64,000 nucleotides of DNA. Origin: Phytohabitans rumicis (GTDB lineage Bacteria > Actinomycetota > Actinomycetes > Mycobacteriales > Micromonosporaceae). Positions 23,954 through 62,135 of this stretch are shown here, in pieces. The DNA is taken from the NCBI RefSeq assembly GCF_011764445.1, contig NZ_BLPG01000001.1, forward strand, positions 2,108,001 through 2,172,000, given 5' to 3'. Both the position numbers and the translations under genes were made by a program. The number at the start of each line of letters is the position of its first letter. Position 1 is the first letter of the stretch. Below the pieces are notes generated by a model that had not been told where the DNA came from, ran no database searches, and saw nothing but the letters and a program-made list of their open reading frames with translations.

Positions 23954-25485
23954 CGCGCGGGCCGCAGGGTCTCGGCGGCGGCGATCGCCGCGAGCACGGC
24001 GGCGGCCTTGTTCTGGGTCTCCCGCTCCTCGGCGGCCGGATCCGAGTCGGCCACGATCCCGGCGCCGGCCTGCACATACGCCCGCCCGCCGCGGATCAGC
24101 GCGGTGCGGATCGCGATGGCCATGTCCATGTCGCCGCCGAAGCCGAAGTAGCCCACCGTGCCGCCGTAGAGCCCCCGGCGGGTCGGCTCCAGCTCCTCGA
24201 TGATCTCCATGGCGCGCACCTTCGGGGCGCCCGAGAGCGTGCCGGCAGGAAACGTCGCGGCCAGCGCGTCGAACGCCGTCTGGTCGTCGCGCAGCTCACC
24301 CACCACGGTCGAGACGATGTGCATCACATGGCTGTACCGCTCGATGGTGGCGAACTCCGGCACCTCGACCGTCCCCGGCCGGCAGACCCGGCCGAGGTCG
24401 TTGCGGCCCAGGTCGACCAGCATGACGTGCTCGGCCCGCTCCTTGGGGTCGGTGATCAGCTCGGCGGCCAGCCCGGCGTCCTGCTCCGGCGTGCCGCCGC
24501 GCGGCCGGGTGCCGGCAATGGGATGAAGCAGTGCCCGCCGCGCCGTTTCCCGAGGCCCGCCGGTGACCTTGAGGTGCGCCTCCGGCGACGACCCCACGAT
24601 GTCGAAGTCGTCGAACCGCAGCAGGTACATGTACGGGCTCGGGTTGGTGGTGCGCAGCACCCGGTAGACGTCCAGCGGGTCCGCCGTGGTGGCCCGCTCG
24701 AACCGCTGCGCCACCACGATCTGGAAGCACTCCCCGGCCCGGATCGCCTCCTTGGCCGCCTCGACCGCCTTGGGGTACGCCCCGGGCTCGGTCCGGCTGA
24801 CGATCTCCCCCAGGGGCGCGCGGTCCACTGTGGAAATCATCGGCGGGATCGGCCGGGACAGCGCCGTGGTCATCGCGTCCAGCCGGCCGATCGCGTGGTG
24901 GTACGCCGCCGCCACGCTTCCTTGATCATCGATGATGGCGTTGGCCACCAGGATGGCCGCGCCCTCGTAGTGATCCAGCACCACCAGGTCGGTCGCCAGC
25001 ATCATGCCCAGCTCGGGCAGCCCGATGTCGTCCTCGGCGAGGGTGGGCAGCCGCTCGAACCGGCGTACCAGGTCGTAGCCCAGATAGCCGACCATGCCGC
25101 CGGTCAGGGGTGGCATGCCCTCGTCGTCCGGCGCGTCCCCGGTCAGCGCCTCGATGGTTTTTTGGAGCACCGCGATCGGGTCGCCATCGGCCGGCACCCC
25201 GGCCGGCGGCGTGCCCAGCCAGGCCGCCCGCCCATCCCGTTCCACCAGCGTGGCCGCGCTGCGCACCCCGATGAAGGAGTACCGCGACCAAGCGGTGCCG
25301 GCCGGACCGGCGCCCTGCTCGGCCGACTCCAGCAGGAAGGTGCCGGGCCCGCCGGCCAGCTTCCGGTACACCCCGATCGGCGTCTCGCCGTCCGCCAGCA
25401 GCCGCCGGATCACCGGTACGACCCGGCGGGTGGCCGCCCGCGCGCGAAACGTGGCCTCGTCCGGGCTGACCGCACCGGTCGTCAT
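23950..25485 (-). CDS. trpE: Anthranilate synthase component I
   Basis: 511 residues, full length. Converts chorismate to anthranilate with ammonia supplied by the TrpG amidotransferase, which is not in this window. The chorismate-binding core has [46 protein letters not shown] and the final [14 protein letters not shown]. The N-terminal LLES-like segment (FLLESAEQG) that usually carries tryptophan feedback control is present. The ATG overlaps the hisI stop by four bases, and the stop overlaps the following membrane-protein start, making a tightly coupled hisI-trpE-trpM unit. Confidence 0.97.
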
Positions 25486-25853
25486 CGCGTCTCTCCCTTG
25501 ACCGGAAGCTCATCGAAGAAGCACGTGCGGCTGCCGGTGTGGCACGCCGCGCCCACCTGCTCCACGCTCACCAGCACAGTGTCGCCGTCACAGTCCAGCG
25601 CCACCGACTTGACGTACTGGTGATGCCCCGACGTGGCCCCCTTCACCCAGTACTCCTGGCGGCTGCGCGACCAGTACGTCGCCCGACCCGTCGTCAGCGT
25701 CCGGTGCAGGGCCTCGTCGTCCATCCAGGCCATCATCAACACGTCACCCGACTGGTACTCCCGCACGATCGCGGCCACCAGTCCGGCCGAGTCGCGTTTT
25801 AGCCGGGCGGCTATTGCCGGGTCGAGGTCGGAGGGTCGTACGGCTGCTTCCAC
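25482..25853 (-). CDS. hisI: Phosphoribosyl-AMP cyclohydrolase
   Basis: 123 residues. Third step of histidine synthesis. The metal-binding residues are visible: DCDGD for Mg, and the zinc cysteines of DCDGD...[22 protein letters not shown] and [19 protein letters not shown] are standard. The GTG at 25853 is chosen because the homologous region starts here; upstream frame to 26291 is low-complexity. There is no Shine-Dalgarno, but an AT-rich AACAAT lies about eight bases before the start, so translation may be leaderless. It heads the trpE operon and is separated from the other his genes by about 18.6 kb. Confidence 0.93.
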
Positions 25854-26088
25854 CTGTCCGATTGTTCCGTACGGGTTGCGACGCCTGCCTGGGGGCTGTG
25901 CTCGGGGCGGCTTGACGGTAGGTTGTCGGTGCGCCGCCTGGGGTCTCCGGCGGGTCGCAACGAATCGACGCGACGCCCGACGCTGTTGCGCGGCGACTGG
26001 GTGGCGACGCCGAAGATCCACGCACGGGCGCACCGGGCCCACCGGCATCCGCTCGCCGGGGCCCAGCCGAGCGGACGGAGGACACTCA

Positions 26089-28701
26089 ATGCAGCCCACT
26101 CCCACACCCAGCCCCGACCCGGCCGACACCGACACGACGGCCGCCATCCCCCTTCCCGGCGGCATCCTGCGCGGACCCCTCAGCGCCGTGCCACCGGCGG
26201 CCGGAGCGCTCCTACCCGGCCAGCGCCCGCCGTCGGACCAGCCCGTGCTCAACGAGCCCACCAGCGAGCTGCCGGTGATCGTCCCGCGCACCGACCAAGG
26301 CCACAGCCCGCTCCCCCCGTACGCCTCCGAACTGATCGACTCCCCGCCCGCCGACCAGGTCTACGCCGCCACCGAGCCGGACGTCCTCACCGACCCGGTC
26401 GCGGACCCGGACCTCGACACAGCACCCTCCGCCGAGTCGGCACCCTCCCTGGACGCTGACGCTCCCGCAGACACCTCTGTGGACACGGACGCCTCCGCGG
26501 CCGCTCCCGCGGACGCCTCCGTGGACGCGGACGCCTCCGTAGACGCGGACATTGACGCCGATGCTCTCGCCGTGGCGGACGTCGAGACCGGCGCGGAGCC
26601 TTCCGTCGAGTCGGACCTTGAGGCCGACGCGGAGTTGGAGCTTGACGCGGAGGCTTCTCCCGGCGCAGCGGATTCCCCTGACGCGGTCGCTTCCGTTGAC
26701 ACGGAGGATTCCCCTGATGCAGAGGCTTCCGTCGACGTGGCCGAGGCGCTCACCGGTGCCGAAGCGGAGCCGGACGTCGCCCCCGCGGCCGACGCTGACA
26801 CCGAGGCCGAGACCTTCGCGGAGCCCGACGCCACGCTTGTCACCGACACCGACGACGTAGTCGCGGAGCCGGACACCGACGCGGAAGCCGAGCCCGACGC
26901 GCTCGCGGAGACGGACGACACCGAGGCTCAGCTAGACGCGGAAGCGGATGCCGACGACGCCGAGACCGAGACCGACACCCCGCCTGTCGCCGCAGCGGAC
27001 GAGGCCGATGCCGACGAAGACATCGAGCCCGACGCGGTAGCCGAGGCCGACGCCGACGCCACGCTTGACACCGACGACGCCGCGGTCGTGGACGAGGAGG
27101 CCGAGGCCGTCGCGGCGCCCGACCCGACCGACGACCCCGACGCCCTGGTCGCGACCGACGACAGCACCGAGGCCGACGCGGACCTGGCCGAGCCGGACGC
27201 CGCACTCGTCAGCGACTCCGAGGAGTCCCTTCTCGACGAAGGGGCGGAGGCCGACGCGGCCAGCGCGGACGCCGAAGCCTTGGTGGAGACCGACGACGCC
27301 GAGGTCGAGGACGACGCGGAGCCGGAAGCCGCCACCGAGCCAGCCGCGGCGGACACCGAGCCCGTAACCGATCCCGAGGCCGACCTAACCGGCGAAGACG
27401 CCGAGGCCGATCCCGACGCCGCAACCGATGCGGACGCCGACCTCGACGCCGCAGCGTTGACGGGGCCGGACGCCGAGGCGGACACGGCCCTCGACCCCGA
27501 CGCCGTGGTGGAGGCCGACGACGTCGAGGCTATGGCTGACCCGGACACCGAGTCTGTTACCGACTCAGCAGCCGCCCTGGACGCCGACACCGCCCTGGAC
27601 GCCGACACCGCGCTGGCCGCCGACACCGCGCTGGACGCTGTAACCGCCCTCGACGCCGACAGCGCACTCGACGCGGAGGCCGACAGCATCGACGCGGCCG
27701 AAGCCGACGCCGGCGCGACCGACCCGGATGCCGAGCCCGACGCCGACGACGTGGCGGCCGAGCCCTCCGCCGCCGTCGCCGCGTTCGAGGCCACCGAGGA
27801 AGAGGTCGACGCCGAGCCCGAGGCCGCCGCGGAGGTGGACTCCGTGCCCGAGGCGGCAGCGTCCGAAGCCGACTCCGAAGCGGACTCCGACACCGCGGAC
27901 GAGCCGGACGCGACGATCGAGCCCGAGGCCGCAGTCGTCGAGGAGGCCGAGGACGTCGCCGCGCCCGAAGGCGCCGAGGAGCCCGAGGCGGACGTAGAGC
28001 CGGACGCGACTGCGGAGCCGGAAACCGTCGCCGAGGCGGACGAGGAAGACGCTGCCACCGAAGCCGACGCGGTCATCGCGCCTGACGCCGCCGACGAGCC
28101 GGCCGACGTCGGCATCAACGGCGCGGCCATCAGTGAAGCCTGGGCGGGCCCCACCGAACAACCGACCCACGAGCCCCTCATCGAGGAGGACATCATCCAA
28201 CCGATCGACGAAATAGAAGAGCAGGAGGCCGCGCCGGAGAAGTCCGCCGACGCGTTCGACAACGACTGGTCGAGCGACAAACTGGGCACCGCCGAGCCAG
28301 CCGCGGACAAGGGACCGGACGGGGGCGACGACCACGACTGGGGCGTCCCGCCGGCCGACGACGAGTCGACCACCGTCGAGGTGGTGCCCGTAGCCGCCGC
28401 CGCACCGCTCAAGCCGGGTGACATCGCCGAGGCGCCGATCGCGATCTGGAGCGAGGAAGCCGCGGACCGGTTCCGCGAGGACTGGCACCAGGTGAAGGCG
28501 TTGTTCGTCGACGAGCCCGAGGCCGCCGTGGCCCAGGCGCAGGCCCTGGTCGCGAACGCGGTGAACACGCTCGCCGAGCGTCTGCTGGCAGAGCAGGTCG
28601 ATCTCGACCCGCGCCGGCAGGCCGAGAGCCCCGACACCGAGGCCCTGCGGATGGCGATGCGCCGCTACCGCGACTTCCTCGACCGGGTGCTCGCCCTCTG
28701 A
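26089..28701 (+). CDS. Giant Ala/Asp/Glu low-complexity acidic protein with conserved-looking C-terminal domain
   Basis: 870 residues from ATG 26089 (GGAGG at 26076-26080). Residues 1-110 are Pro/Thr-rich. About 110-680 is almost only Ala, Asp, Glu, Val, Thr, Ser and Pro in irregular DADA/EAD units, with a clear block of six 18-base tandem repeats at 27574-27681 ([36 protein letters not shown]). There is virtually no Lys or aromatic residue there. The last 95 residues are different: [25 protein letters not shown]...[13 protein letters not shown]...[16 protein letters not shown], a helical domain. No signal peptide or membrane helix. The protein must be highly negatively charged and largely disordered. 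Function unknown; DNA mimicry, polyvalent cation binding or an entropic spacer are only ideas. Divergent from hisI. Confidence 0.85.
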
Positions 28702-28717
28702 CCCACCGCGCCGCAGC

Positions 28718-28769
28718 GATCGTGGTGACTAATTGCCCCTCCAAGGGCAGCTAGTCACCACGATCCTTT
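28718..28769 (+). terminator. Hairpin plus T-tract after acidic-protein gene
   Basis: Arms GATCGTGGTGACTA (28718-28731) and TAGTCACCACGATC (28752-28765), with an inner GCCCT/AGGGC pairing, followed by TTTT. A classical intrinsic terminator shape, unusual in this window because it has a T-tract. Confidence 0.75.
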
Positions 28770-28820
28770 TGTGCCGAGATCCTTTTGCGCCAAGGACAGC
28801 CTCTGAGCCGCCACGGCCTC

Positions 28821-28906
28821 GCCGATCAAGGCATTCCACGTCGATCAAGGGCAACCGGCCGTGGAAAAGAGATCAAAGCACGACCCTTCGCCCTTGATCG
28901 ACGGAA
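28821..28906. repeat. Compound hairpin repeat, copy B
   Basis: Arms GTCGATCAAGGGC (28840) and GCCCTTGATCGAC (ending 28903); the loop contains GAGATCAAAG, i.e. inverted relative to copies A, C and D. A G-rich tract of about 90 bases (GGGGCCGGGA-like words) follows to 29003. The element's arm supplies the stop codon of the nucleotidyltransferase gene. Confidence 0.75.
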
Positions 28907-29807
28907 AGAGGCGGTCTGCTCGACGGACGAGGGGCCGGGAAGAGGGCCGGGACGAGGGGCACGGGGGACGGCTAGAAGGCGGGGACGGGGGAGGGGTGGG
29001 GGTTAGTTGGGAGAGGTAGCGCGGGAGGCGGCCGTCCAGCAGGGCGCCAGCCAGGTCCTCGCCCGCGGTCGGGGCCAGCTGGTTGGCGTACGGGCGGATC
29101 AGGGTGACCGTGCCGGTGACCAGGCGGCGGGCGGCGGCGTACACCTGGAAGGGTGCGGCTGCCGCGAGCCCGAGGCAGGTCAGCATGTCGTCGCGGTAGC
29201 CCGCGGGCGCGACCCGGAAGCCCAGCGCGGCGTCGAGCGCCGACCGGCGGCCGGCGACGGTGACCGCGGGGTTGGCGAGCCGGAGTACGGACGGGCAGAG
29301 CCGGGCCAGGTCGGTGGCCGCGAAGCGGGCGCCGAGGTCGTCCCCGGCGGCGTACGCGCCGGCGACCTTGCCCAGGCCGGCGACGAGGTCTTCCAGCGCG
29401 GGGTCGCCGGCGGGCTGGCGGATCTCGGTGACGTCGAGCCGGTCGCGCCACTCCTCGGCGGCCCACAGCAGGCGGGCCGGCGCGACCACGGGCAGGCCGA
29501 ACGCCCAGTCGGCGGGCGCGGACACGTGCGCGTACCAGCTGGTGGTGTCGCTGACCGCGACGGACAGGTGCACCAGCCGCCCGCCGGCCTCCACCAGGTA
29601 CGCCGGGTACGACTGCCGCGGCGGGCCGTCCACCAGCACGTCGAGGTCGACGTCGCTGTAGGTGGTGGCCTCGTCCCGGGCGTAGCTGCCACGCAGGAGG
29701 ACGCCTACGACGGGTGGACCGGTTGACGTCCGCAACCGGTCCACCCAGTCTCCCAGGAACCCGGTGTCGAGCACGGGCAGTTCGATCACCGCGTCATCGT
29801 GCCGCAT
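28845..29807 (-). CDS. Nucleotidyltransferase-fold protein with repeat-derived C-terminal tail
   Basis: 320 residues as read. The N-terminal domain has the polymerase-beta-type motif GSYARDEATTYSDVDLDVLV (GS...D-x-D), typical of small nucleotidyltransferases including antibiotic-modifying and toxin-like MNT proteins; residues 90-270 are helical and Ala-rich. Homologous-looking sequence ends around RLPRYLSQLT (residue 270). The last 50 residues come from the Pro/Ser-coding GC tract and hairpin copy B and end SIKGEGSCFDLFSTAGCP, so the natural C-terminus has probably been extended by the repeat. Start ATG 29807; GTG 29789 is an alternative. The target is unknown. It lies 24 bases after the aldo-keto reductase stop on the same strand. 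Confidence 0.75.
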   Translation of the reverse strand: MRHDDAVIELPVLDTGFLGDWVDRLRTSTGPPVVGVLLRGSYARDEATTYSDVDLDVLVDGPPRQSYPAYLVEAGGRLVHLSVAVSDTTSWYAHVSAPADWAFGLPVVAPARLLWAAEEWRDRLDVTEIRQPAGDPALEDLVAGLGKVAGAYAAGDDLGARFAATDLARLCPSVLRLANPAVTVAGRRSALDAALGFRVAPAGYRDDMLTCLGLAAAAPFQVYAAARRLVTGTVTLIRPYANQLAPTAGEDLAGALLDGRLPRYLSQLTPTPPPSPPSSRPPCPSSRPSSRPLVRRADRLFPSIKGEGSCFDLFSTAGCP

Positions 29808-52242: not shown

Positions 52243-52437
52243 GCCCGAGCTACCCGACGACGCGTACCCGTCCACGCCCGGCACCGCGGCCCGCGCCCGG
52301 CCCGCCGCTCAGTGCAGGACCGCGCCCGGTCCGCCGCTCTGTCCACGGCCGCGCCCTGTCTGCGGCTCCGTGCACGGCCGCGCCCGCCTGCGGCTCCGTG
52401 CAAGGCCCGCACCGAACCGCGGACCCCCGCCGGGCCC

Positions 52438-59815: not shown

Positions 59816-60375
59816 TTCTTAAGACTCCGAACCCGGGTGCCGTCCCGCTGCCGCCCGGTGAACTCCAGCCCGACCGCCAGCAGCACGCCACACACCAGCG
59901 CGCTGTCGGCCACGTTGAAGATCGGCCAAACCTGGCCGCGCGGATCGAAGAGGCTGACCATGTCGACCACGTGCCCGACCAGGAAGCCGGGCGCCCGGAA
60001 GATCCGGTCCACCACGTTGCCCAGCGCACCGCCGAGCACCAGGCCCAGCGCGACGCCCCACGGCACCGACCGCAGGCGCAGCGCCATCCACGCGATCCAC
60101 CCGATGACCGCCGACGTGATCAGCGGAAACACGAACGTGTAGTCGCTGCCCAGGCTGAACGCCGCCCCGCTGTTGCGGGTCAGGCTCAGGTAGACCGCGC
60201 CGCCCAGCAGGCGTACCGGATCGCCGTCCTCGAGATGGGACAGCGCGAGCTGCTTCGTGACCTGGTCGATCGCGACCGCGACAGCGGCGGTGGCGACCAG
60301 AATCAGGACCGCTGGTCGCCGTGCCGGCGCCGGCCGTTCATCGACGGCCGGCGCGTCCGAAGCCGTAGCACTCAG
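59812..60375 (-). CDS. lspA: Signal peptidase II (lipoprotein)
   Basis: 187 residues from a proposed CTG start. Four-helix aspartic protease cleaving lipoprotein signal peptides. Asp123 in [10 protein letters not shown] and Asp157 in FNVADSAL are the catalytic pair; [12 protein letters not shown] is the third conserved box. Start choice: GGAGGAAAGG lies just upstream, and CTG 60375 would overlap the preceding stop as CTGA, the same arrangement as other coupled genes here. The next in-frame ordinary start, GTG 60408, has no RBS and overlaps the upstream gene by 37 bases. The first 22 residues are hydrophilic in either case. Confidence 0.9.
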
Positions 60376-60791
60376 CGCCTTTCCTCCAACTGCTTGCAGG
60401 TCACACACAACGTCGCGGACGGGAACGCGGCGAGCCGCTCCACCGGAATGGGGTTGCCGCACCGCTCACACCAGCCGTAGCTGCCCTCGTCGAGCCGCTC
60501 CAGCGCACGCTCCACCTGGCTGATCCGCTCCAGGATGCCATTCGCGAGAGAGATCTCCTGCTCCCGCTCGAACGTCTTGGTGCCCGTATCGGCCTGGTCG
60601 TCCCCGGCCGAGTCGGTCAGCCGCTCGCGCTGCAACTCGGTAATCTCGCTCAGCGTCTGATCGTACTCGTCGCGCAACTCGTCCCGGCGCGCCGCCAGGG
60701 CGGCCCGGATCTTCTCGGTCTCCGCGGCGCTGCGGGTCCCCTTCGCCGGCTTGCGGCTCGTGGCGGTCTTGGTGTCGGCTGGCTTCGCCAT
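60372..60791 (-). other. Possible internal translation start giving stand-alone DksA/TraR protein
   Basis: ATG 60791 is in frame within the long gene and has AAGGGAG at the proper distance upstream. The product, MAKPADTKTATSRKPAKG... to the C-terminus, is 139 residues, the usual size for a free-standing TraR/DksA protein. Shown separately because it may be a second product of the same gene. Confidence 0.5.
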
Positions 60792-61916
60792 CGTCGCTCC
60801 CTTGGCCGCGGTCTCCGCGGCGATCGGCGGGGCCTGGGTGGCCGCGGTCGGTGTGGTGGTGCTTGCAGCGCCGCCGGCGGGTTGCGCCGGAGCCGCTGGA
60901 GCGGCGGTCGCCGCCCTTTCGGGCGGCCTGGGGGCCACAAGGGCCTCCGCCGGCGCCGTCGTCGGTGCCGGTGTCTGCGGTCGCGCACTCTTGCGCGGTG
61001 GTTCAGCTTCCTTTTCGAGTACGCCGGAGCGCTGAGCCGGTGTGGTCTGCGCGGCTCGGGCCGGCGCCCTCTTGCCTGCCTTGGTCGGGGCGGCCTTGGT
61101 AGCTTTTACCCCCTTCGCCGGGGCCGCCTTCTTGCCCGCCTTGGTGGTGCTCGCCTTGGCGGCCTTCGCCGGGGCCACGGTTGCGGCCTTCGCTGGGGCC
61201 ACGGCCTTGGTGGCCCTCGCCGGGGCCGCCTTCTTGGCCGGCGCTGCCTTGGTAGTGCTCGCCTTGGCCGGCGCTGCCTTGGCGGTACTCGCCTTGACCG
61301 CGCTCGCCTTCGCGGCGCTCGCCTTGGTGGTACTCGCCTTGGCGGGGGCCTTCGTCGCCGCGGTCTTCGTCGCGGGCGCCTTCTTGGCCGGGGCCTGGCT
61401 CGCCGCTGCCGCCTTGGCCGGCGCCTTCTTCGCCTTGGTGGCCCTCGCTGGCACGGCCTTCCCCGCCGCCGCCTTCTTCGCGGTCGCCTTGGCCGGCGCG
61501 GTCGCCTTGGCCGGCGCGGTCGCCTTGGCCGGCGCTGCGGTGGTCACGGCCTTGCCCGGCGCGGTCGCCTTGGCCGGCGCTGCGGTGGTCACGGCCTTGC
61601 CCGGCGCGGCCTTCCTCGCCGTACTCTTCGCGGGCGCGGTCGCCTTCGCGGACTTCGCTGGCGCGGCCTTGGCCGGCGGCGTTGTGGCCTTCTTGACCGC
61701 GGTCTTGTTGGCGGCCTTCTTCGCGGCCGGGGTGGCGCCGGTCTTGCGGGCCGGTCCGGACCCCGCCTTGCGTGCCGGGGCGGCCTTCTTACCCGCCGGC
61801 GCCTTGGTCGCGGGCACGGTCGCGGCGCGGTTAGCCGCGGCCCGAGCCCCCACGGCGCGCGTGGACGCACCGCTCTTCGATGCCGCCTTGCGCGCGGCGT
61901 TCGCCCGCTCGGCCAT
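60372..61916 (-). CDS. Histone H1-like Lys/Ala/Pro repeat region fused to DksA/TraR zinc-finger protein
   Basis: 514 residues. Residues 1-320 are KA, KAAPAK and KATAPAK repeats, like eukaryotic H1 tails and bacterial H1-type nucleoid proteins; a duplicated block AKATAPGKAVTTAAP is visible at about 61540-61600. A Pro/Thr/Ala linker follows. From Met376 the sequence is a normal TraR/DksA-like protein: coiled coil RAALAARRDELRDEYDQTL...ISLANGILERISQVERALERL, then zinc site CERCGNPIPVERLAAFPSATLCVTC (CX2CX17CX2C). ATG 60791 (Met376) has AAGGGAG six bases upstream, so a 139-residue DksA form could be made separately. Promoter at 61977-62005. Upstream of and coupled to lspA. Confidence 0.85.
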   Translation of the reverse strand: MAERANAARKAASKSGASTRAVGARAAANRAATVPATKAPAGKKAAPARKAGSGPARKTGATPAAKKAANKTAVKKATTPPAKAAPAKSAKATAPAKSTARKAAPGKAVTTAAPAKATAPGKAVTTAAPAKATAPAKATAPAKATAKKAAAGKAVPARATKAKKAPAKAAAASQAPAKKAPATKTAATKAPAKASTTKASAAKASAVKASTAKAAPAKASTTKAAPAKKAAPARATKAVAPAKAATVAPAKAAKASTTKAGKKAAPAKGVKATKAAPTKAGKRAPARAAQTTPAQRSGVLEKEAEPPRKSARPQTPAPTTAPAEALVAPRPPERAATAAPAAPAQPAGGAASTTTPTAATQAPPIAAETAAKGATMAKPADTKTATSRKPAKGTRSAAETEKIRAALAARRDELRDEYDQTLSEITELQRERLTDSAGDDQADTGTKTFEREQEISLANGILERISQVERALERLDEGSYGWCERCGNPIPVERLAAFPSATLCVTCKQLEERR

Positions 61917-61976
61917 CGTGTCCCCCACTTGCAAAACGGGCGCGCGGCGGGACGCCGCGCACTCCGGTGGCTGGCA

Positions 61977-62005
61977 AGAATACGGAACGTGAGGACGTCC
62001 GACAA
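61977..62005 (-). promoter_or_regulatory. Promoter of H1-like/DksA gene
   Basis: On the minus strand TTGTCG (62005-62000), a 17-base spacer, and TATTCT (61982-61977), close to the sigma-70 consensus and the best -10 box seen in the window. The ATG at 61916 lies about 55 bases downstream. Confidence 0.65.
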
Positions 62006-62135
62006 CATGCCGCACCGTTCGTACCCAATTCAGAGGCTGCTAAACCCGCAAACCGGGCGAAAGCCACTCTAGATCAATAATTCCTCACTCGCGGGCGTAC
62101 TCCCTCATCCATCACCAATGCCACATCATGCCCGC

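Follow-up and report, generated by a model that had tools for sequence, protein, structure and literature searches.

The locus described here raises two questions: whether a reading frame that encodes a very long, strongly acidic low-complexity region is a real gene, and what kind of protein it makes. Very long disordered regions in bacterial proteins have received little study. The genome of Phytohabitans rumicis comprises 10.7 Mb in 3 contigs, and the stretch of 64,000 nucleotides that was analysed (the window) lies on contig C1 at 2108001-2172000. Its plus strand carries an open reading frame of 870 aa at 26089-28701, with the ATG at 26089 and a stop codon ending at 28701; the coordinates, strand and length given in a preliminary description of this DNA are all correct. 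This region contains 0 stops in its own frame, whereas the two remaining forward frames have 15 and 13 and the three reverse ones 4, 3, and 14. Since the reverse frames of such G+C-rich sequence have few stops, the long antisense reading frames opposite the acidic gene are unremarkable.

The encoded protein has four parts. A Pro-rich N-terminal segment (residues 1-94, 26089..26370, plus strand) aligns to relatives. It is followed by a polyanionic low-complexity spacer (residues 95-680, 26371..28128, plus strand) that consists of 28.7% A, 21.2% D, 14.5% E, 7.3% V, 7.7% T, and 7.5% P, with D+E at 36% and K and R at 0. These six letters account for about 87% of the 586 residues, in line with the preliminary count of more than 550 residues made almost solely of them, and the longest run free of K and R extends over residues 68-717 (650 aa). 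The spacer appears disordered from its composition and the charge-hydropathy rule, by which residues 1-94 and the C-terminal domain do not fall on the disordered side. A match of the whole protein to the NCBIfam ClfA model (E 0.049, with 11 bits where the cut-off is 1150) is ascribed to low complexity. The pre-C segment (residues 681-775, INGAAI...IIQP...DDHDW, 28129..28413, plus strand) is common to Phytohabitans relatives and is less extreme in composition than the spacer. The C-terminal domain occupies residues 773-870 (28405..28698, plus strand).

Within the spacer, 73% of codons are GNN, and an 18-bp tandem array is found at 27572..27674 on the plus strand (5.7 copies, 84% matches, TRF score 136). 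The tandem units noted earlier therefore exist, but they carry less weight than was given to them: the mean top score of 200 codon shuffles of the spacer is 69 and 1 of the 200 reaches 136, so the array is modestly above chance. The repeats are a side feature of the low-complexity region. Elsewhere in the window, a 29-bp tandem array with the score 136 is present at 52291-52407 (4.1 copies). The window also contains a basic counterpart of the acidic protein, a polycationic reading frame of 547 residues on the minus strand at 60372-62015, with a long Ala/Lys/Pro/Thr-rich low-complexity region and a terminal dksA/traR C4 zinc finger (PF01258, E 1.8e-13).

The C-terminal domain comprises about 85 residues and is labelled here the FVD domain, the acidic protein having its motif FVDxP ... 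TExLR ... YR. In an alignment of 23 domains the mean column identity is 53%; F, P, and two A are invariant, and W, D, D, L, T, E, R, R, and L nearly so. The AlphaFold2 model built on this 23-row alignment (pLDDT 87.3) has helices at residues 789-808, 810-838, and 850-869, and a three-helix bundle is predicted. The distinct helical C-terminal domain of about 95 residues proposed earlier is thus present and conserved, its helices being a prediction. Profile comparison reveals homology between the domain and the C-terminal half of membrane-anchored proteins, a family for which the label RFGPEYDR was coined here (hhalign probability 98.8, E 6.9e-17; RFGPEYDR model pLDDT 93). The RFGPEYDR proteins differ in having a strongly hydrophobic N-terminus (best 19-mer 2.81), no acidic tail, and an extra stretch inserted between two motifs shared with the FVD domain.

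No Pfam family matches the whole acidic protein or its C-terminal domain at E<=1, and the window FVD domain is unrecognised by all four libraries searched (Pfam, NCBIfam, PADLOC, and PHROGs). One of the 23 aligned members matches Pfam CwsA at E 0.0094, and no other family was found among the 23. The membrane and paralogous proteins give sub-threshold matches only, e.g., CwsA (E 0.025), Rv1476 (E 0.26), and 4hydrxCoA_A (E 0.0029). Foldseek against the PDB gives 0 matches at E<=0.001 for the FVD and RFGPEYDR models; the best VIA-align Z among 66 chains is 6.2, a level common for helical bundles, and the best hmmsearch hit of the domain in the PDB is RNA polymerase alpha, which is not significant (E 0.036). 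No name or structure for the FVD family was found in the family libraries, the PDB, or the literature searched, and a literature search for 'RFGPEYDR' found nothing. The accessible parts of the literature on Micromonosporaceae and intrinsically disordered proteins hold nothing on the acidic gene, nor do the listings of further literature searches. In those annotated plasmid records that were opened, five in number, RFGPEYDR carries no annotation beyond 'hypothetical protein'.

The first question is answered by the relatives. The divergent neighbour at 25482..25868 on the minus strand is hisI (phosphoribosyl-AMP cyclohydrolase, PF01502, E 4.6e-35; start codon provisional), which bears out the arrangement described before. 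The neighbour on the other side (28845-29807, minus strand) encodes a nucleotidyltransferase whose substrate-binding domain is of the Ant-IIb type (PF18280, E 2.6e-32). Both hisI and the FVD domain are found in 8 of 12 relative stretches that were fetched (L036-L042, L045); of the other four, L035 is cut by a contig end, and L043, L044, and L046 contain different copies. When 84,980 species genomes were scanned with a 7-row alignment, 117 encoding stretches emerged, the best 80 of which were kept; in 37 of these the copy has hisI as its divergent neighbour, in another 37 it adjoins a membrane-protein gene, and 6 are unplaced. Among the 37 named hisI-divergent orthologues in the best 80 of 117, the frame is open to within 700 nt of hisI in 33, and the acidic reading frame is therefore a real protein-coding gene in a hisI-linked branch of an actinobacterial family. 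The preliminary view of an independent, translated gene is upheld, and looking for relatives without the domain or for an untranslated frame turned up nothing that refutes it, although within the taxonomic family 18 of the 81 genomes searched have no FVD copy at E<=1e-4.

The four orthologues without an open frame are two Phytohabitans (broken), Dactylosporangium roseum, and Actinoplanes sp. TFC3 (a run of N). In the Phytohabitans stretches L036 and L038 the frame breaks at C-runs near the same place, and in L037 the N-terminus is out of frame with its C-terminus. A programmed frameshift was considered for these three, and sequencing error is taken as likeliest, with real slippage as the alternative; in L036 and L038, but not in L037, trpE is split as well.

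Several sequence elements flank the gene. A promoter-like element, GGGGGCTGTGC ... TAGGTT (25891..25924, plus strand), has similar counterparts in the intergenic regions of orthologues in an alignment by eye; the pattern, which was fitted after viewing the sequences, matches 18 and misses 19 of the 37 hisI-linked loci (best 80 of 117), and a sigma-70 scan found no site. The 5' leader contains an inverted repeat (26049..26074, plus strand) that is near-identical in Phytohabitans relatives and is followed by GGAGGA at 26077, and a leader string of the GAGCGGACGGA type occurs in 14 of the 37 loci (best 80 of 117). The leader hairpin folds no better than shuffles (z -0.45, 61 of 200 shuffles as good), and no Rfam family reaches its gathering score in the whole window, so the leader repeat does not count as a sign of a riboswitch; two sub-threshold Rfam matches lie nearby (M23, E 0.066; asX6, E 1.1). 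Downstream, the terminator of the preliminary description is borne out by a real and strong hairpin at 28718..28765 on the plus strand. Folding of 28710-28775 yields -38.9 kcal/mol (z -8.7), which 0 of 200 shuffles equal. The tail of the hairpin is CCUUUUG only, and a simple terminator scan listed no site there.

The FVD domain has a wider distribution than the acidic gene. In a domain tree (95 columns, 35 open forks), the hisI-linked proteins (38 rows including the window) and the membrane-paired ones (37 rows) are split by one branch with an SH-aLRT of 100. The window gene groups with the hisI branch and not with the membrane-paired subfamily; no RFGPEYDR gene lies beside it, and no membrane-protein gene adjoins it in the 64-kb window. 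Elsewhere, the RFGPEYDR gene adjoins an FVD paralogue with a shorter tail. The same genome has two such copies, both with an RFGPEYDR gene next to them: the copy on C1 has 196 aa, and that on the 1.03-Mb contig C2 has 241 aa. Near the pair on C2 (L158, 3959-7659) are an IS3-like transposase (integrase core) and a CorA transporter.

Among 81 genomes of the taxonomic family, the FVD domain is present in 63 and the full-length RFGPEYDR protein (E <1e-40) in 54; every one of the 54 belongs to the 63, which leaves nine with the domain alone and 18 without either. Some of the nine domain-only assemblies are incomplete, and hisI linkage was seen in three of them (G007, G010, and G013). The existence of such genomes indicates that the membrane partner is dispensable. 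Across the phylum, 38 of 296 sampled Actinomycetota genomes match, some through the membrane protein's own domain, and the RFGPEYDR protein occurs in 12 of 72,556 plasmid records, including one from the alphaproteobacterium Qipengyuania. Within the fetched stretches of the 37 membrane-paired loci (best 80 of 117), a NIT-type histidine kinase match is present in 33 and DUF742 in 21. In two loci inspected gene by gene, of a kind that includes L157 and L118, a conservon-like set of kinase, roadblock, DUF742, and GTPase genes is divergent to the RFGPEYDR/FVD pair. Other neighbours are CorA and a transglycosylase-associated protein (L158), BrkB (L159), and YihY, GlsB, and VanZ on one Streptomyces plasmid. 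These neighbourhoods hint at an envelope or stress connection.

The second question, that of the protein's role, turns on the tail. In the 33 open frames of the 37 hisI-linked orthologues (best 80 of 117), tail length ranges from 109 to 1702 aa; the values are approximate because start codons were picked by a simple rule, which in L085 sets the start too far upstream (1447 aa, where the aligned start gives 1370 aa). With a cut-off for acidic tails of D+E >=20% and K+R <3%, 24 of these 33 (best 80 of 117) are acidic, with tails of 109-1351 aa, and nine are not. On the hisI branch of the tree, 10 of 38 proteins lie outside the acidic group, and 8 of them cluster (Catenuloplanes and seven of the Actinoplanes branch). 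Six of the seven Actinoplanes-branch tails are readable, and they contain 40-50% P+G+S+Q, 8-14% D+E, and 6-11% K+R. This branch keeps the same FVD domain and hisI locus despite a nearly neutral tail. Most hisI-linked copies thus have polyanionic tails, and the Actinoplanes branch Pro/Gly/Ser/Gln-rich ones. Short motifs near the tail ends are confined to certain lineages: an EPTSELP-type motif near the N-terminus occurs in 6 of the 37 orthologues, and the INGA motif of the pre-C segment in 3 of the 37, all Phytohabitans (both best 80 of 117). The constants are thus the domain and the locus, and what varies is the length and chemistry of the tail.

Because the folded end and the place in the genome are kept while the floppy part varies in length and chemistry, the gene looks like one for a scaffold or spacer. 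The explanation that we prefer, tentatively, is a helical interaction domain that carries a selected but replaceable disordered spacer, a build like that of PopZ. The FVD domain would serve as an interaction or oligomerisation module, either associating with itself or binding another helical protein, which may be the membrane-anchored RFGPEYDR protein where it exists. The long tail would behave as an expanded like-charged polymer and form a repulsive spacer, brush, or scaffold, and it possibly bears short binding motifs close to its ends. Among the roles suggested in the preliminary description, the phase-separating spacer is the best fit, with phase separation itself putative. A broader scheme, a novel bacterial scaffold system, is doubtful: FVD homo- or hetero-assemblies would be docked to the membrane by RFGPEYDR in many Actinomycetota, lineage-specific tails would set charge, spacing, and phase behaviour, and the hisI-linked gene would be a freed version in the cytoplasm, whose tails reach about 1700 residues.

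It is rather unlikely that the polyanion is the function proper, with a tail that binds basic proteins or cations (as DNA mimic, counter-ion buffer, or nucleoid-protein chaperone) and a domain that acts as its handle. Such a role is consistent with the 36% D+E and the lack of K and R over 586 residues, and with the substitutions between species. Four acidic pairs with about 802 Ala, 680 Glu, and 370 Asp sites have 69 Ala-Thr, 0 Glu-Lys, and 4 Asp-Asn exchanges by single-base A/G changes at the first codon position, and the Ala-Thr rate scaled to sites predicts about 58 Glu-Lys and about 32 Asp-Asn exchanges; base context differs between these codons and the alignments are of low complexity, and the contrast is large nonetheless. 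Two non-acidic pairs have 1 and 2 changes between D/E and K/R. Negative charge therefore looks selected within the acidic lineages, for which the statement that charge matters stands, and exact sequence and length do not look selected. Tail charge also varies with domain charge (rho -0.54, p 0.001, 34 rows, related rows counted as independent). The six Dactylosporangium rows (L098, L106, L108, L109, L110, and L112) combine the most acidic tails (36-44% D+E) with a C-terminal domain of net +4 to +7, whereas the domain is net negative in all other 28 rows compared, and the correlation is probably an effect of this one genus. The six readable Actinoplanes-branch tails argue against the polyanion, as domain and locus are kept there without its charge. 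DNA-mimic proteins have conserved negative charge as the basis of their function and bind a DNA-binding protein; here the charge is kept in the four acidic pairs and is absent in those six tails, which speaks against the class. With 10 of 38 proteins non-acidic, DNA mimicry or cation storage, both raised in the preliminary description, is disfavoured as the core role of the family, and the apparently selected charge in the four acidic pairs is what stands of that proposal.

A mostly passive filler is also unlikely; in this case slippage would lengthen and shorten the tail of a protein from a G+C-rich genome, and only the domain, and perhaps the ends, would matter. The range of tail lengths, the GNN codons, the tandem arrays, and the replacement of the tail in one clade would all agree with it. 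However, the frame is open in 33 of 37 orthologues, charge-reversing changes are absent in the four acidic pairs, and the dN/dS of the tail in six species pairs is 0.33-0.57 and not near 1, against 0.02-0.16 for the domain (Nei-Gojobori count, computed on alignments of low-complexity sequence). It is improbable that the acidic protein is the soluble partner of the RFGPEYDR protein in an envelope or stress function, their domains pairing with each other: domain homology, the presence of the domain in 54 of 54 family genomes with the full membrane protein, the NIT kinase match in 33 of 37 membrane-paired loci (best 80 of 117), and the CorA, BrkB, or YihY/GlsB/VanZ neighbours of single loci point that way, but 9 of 81 genomes have the domain only, the hisI-linked branch is separate on the tree and its gene in the window lacks an adjacent membrane gene, and neighbourhoods vary between lineages.

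The family has a wider interest. In Micromonosporaceae, one folded domain and one locus stay fixed against a more than tenfold range of tail lengths and, in a single clade, a switch of tail chemistry, so the FVD tails form a natural experiment on the effect of charge and length of a disordered region. The family reaches many Actinomycetota and one alphaproteobacterial plasmid.

Three known systems were compared. The conservon protein CvnF8 came into question since a conservon-like kinase is frequent at membrane-paired loci; in the accessible text it is a GAF-domain protein of the conservon itself (PMC13343842), and a conservon accessory (CvnF) was rejected on that ground. The RFGPEYDR/FVD pair is divergent to the conservon in the two loci inspected. 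SspA of Actinoplanes missouriensis is likewise a predicted disordered protein from Micromonosporaceae, and is described in the available part of its report as a spore-surface protein of 191 aa with a signal peptide and a sortase signal (PMC13293333). Compared by this description it has a different build and was rejected, the acidic protein having no 19-mer above a hydropathy of 1.02.

A disordered polymer joined to a helical domain is a known kind of build, although the domain family itself is uncharacterised. The sequence family of PopZ (Pfam DUF2497) has no match at E<=1 in the whole acidic protein or its C-terminal domain. In the accessible part of one study, PopZ, the polar scaffold of Caulobacter, consists of a helical oligomerisation domain and a disordered region with a mean acidic fraction of 0.29, and the two parts have opposing effects that set condensate properties (PMC9512792). 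The acidic protein resembles it in combining an acidic disordered region with a C-terminal helical domain, and in a composition that is kept as the sequence drifts; its residues 95-680 have 36% D+E against that mean, with disorder here judged from composition (PMC9512792). The PopZ region is short, with 23% Pro and a narrow spread of lengths in Caulobacterales, whereas the tails here range over 109-1702 aa, more than tenfold, with variable chemistry (PMC9512792). PopZ is reported to trade the length of this region against its charge, unlike the FVD proteins, in which longer tails do not have lower D+E (rho 0.13, p 0.46, 34 rows) (PMC9512792). PopZ oligomerises through its helical domain, and oligomerisation of the FVD domain is putative (PMC9512792). 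The acidic protein would thus work like PopZ without being a PopZ.
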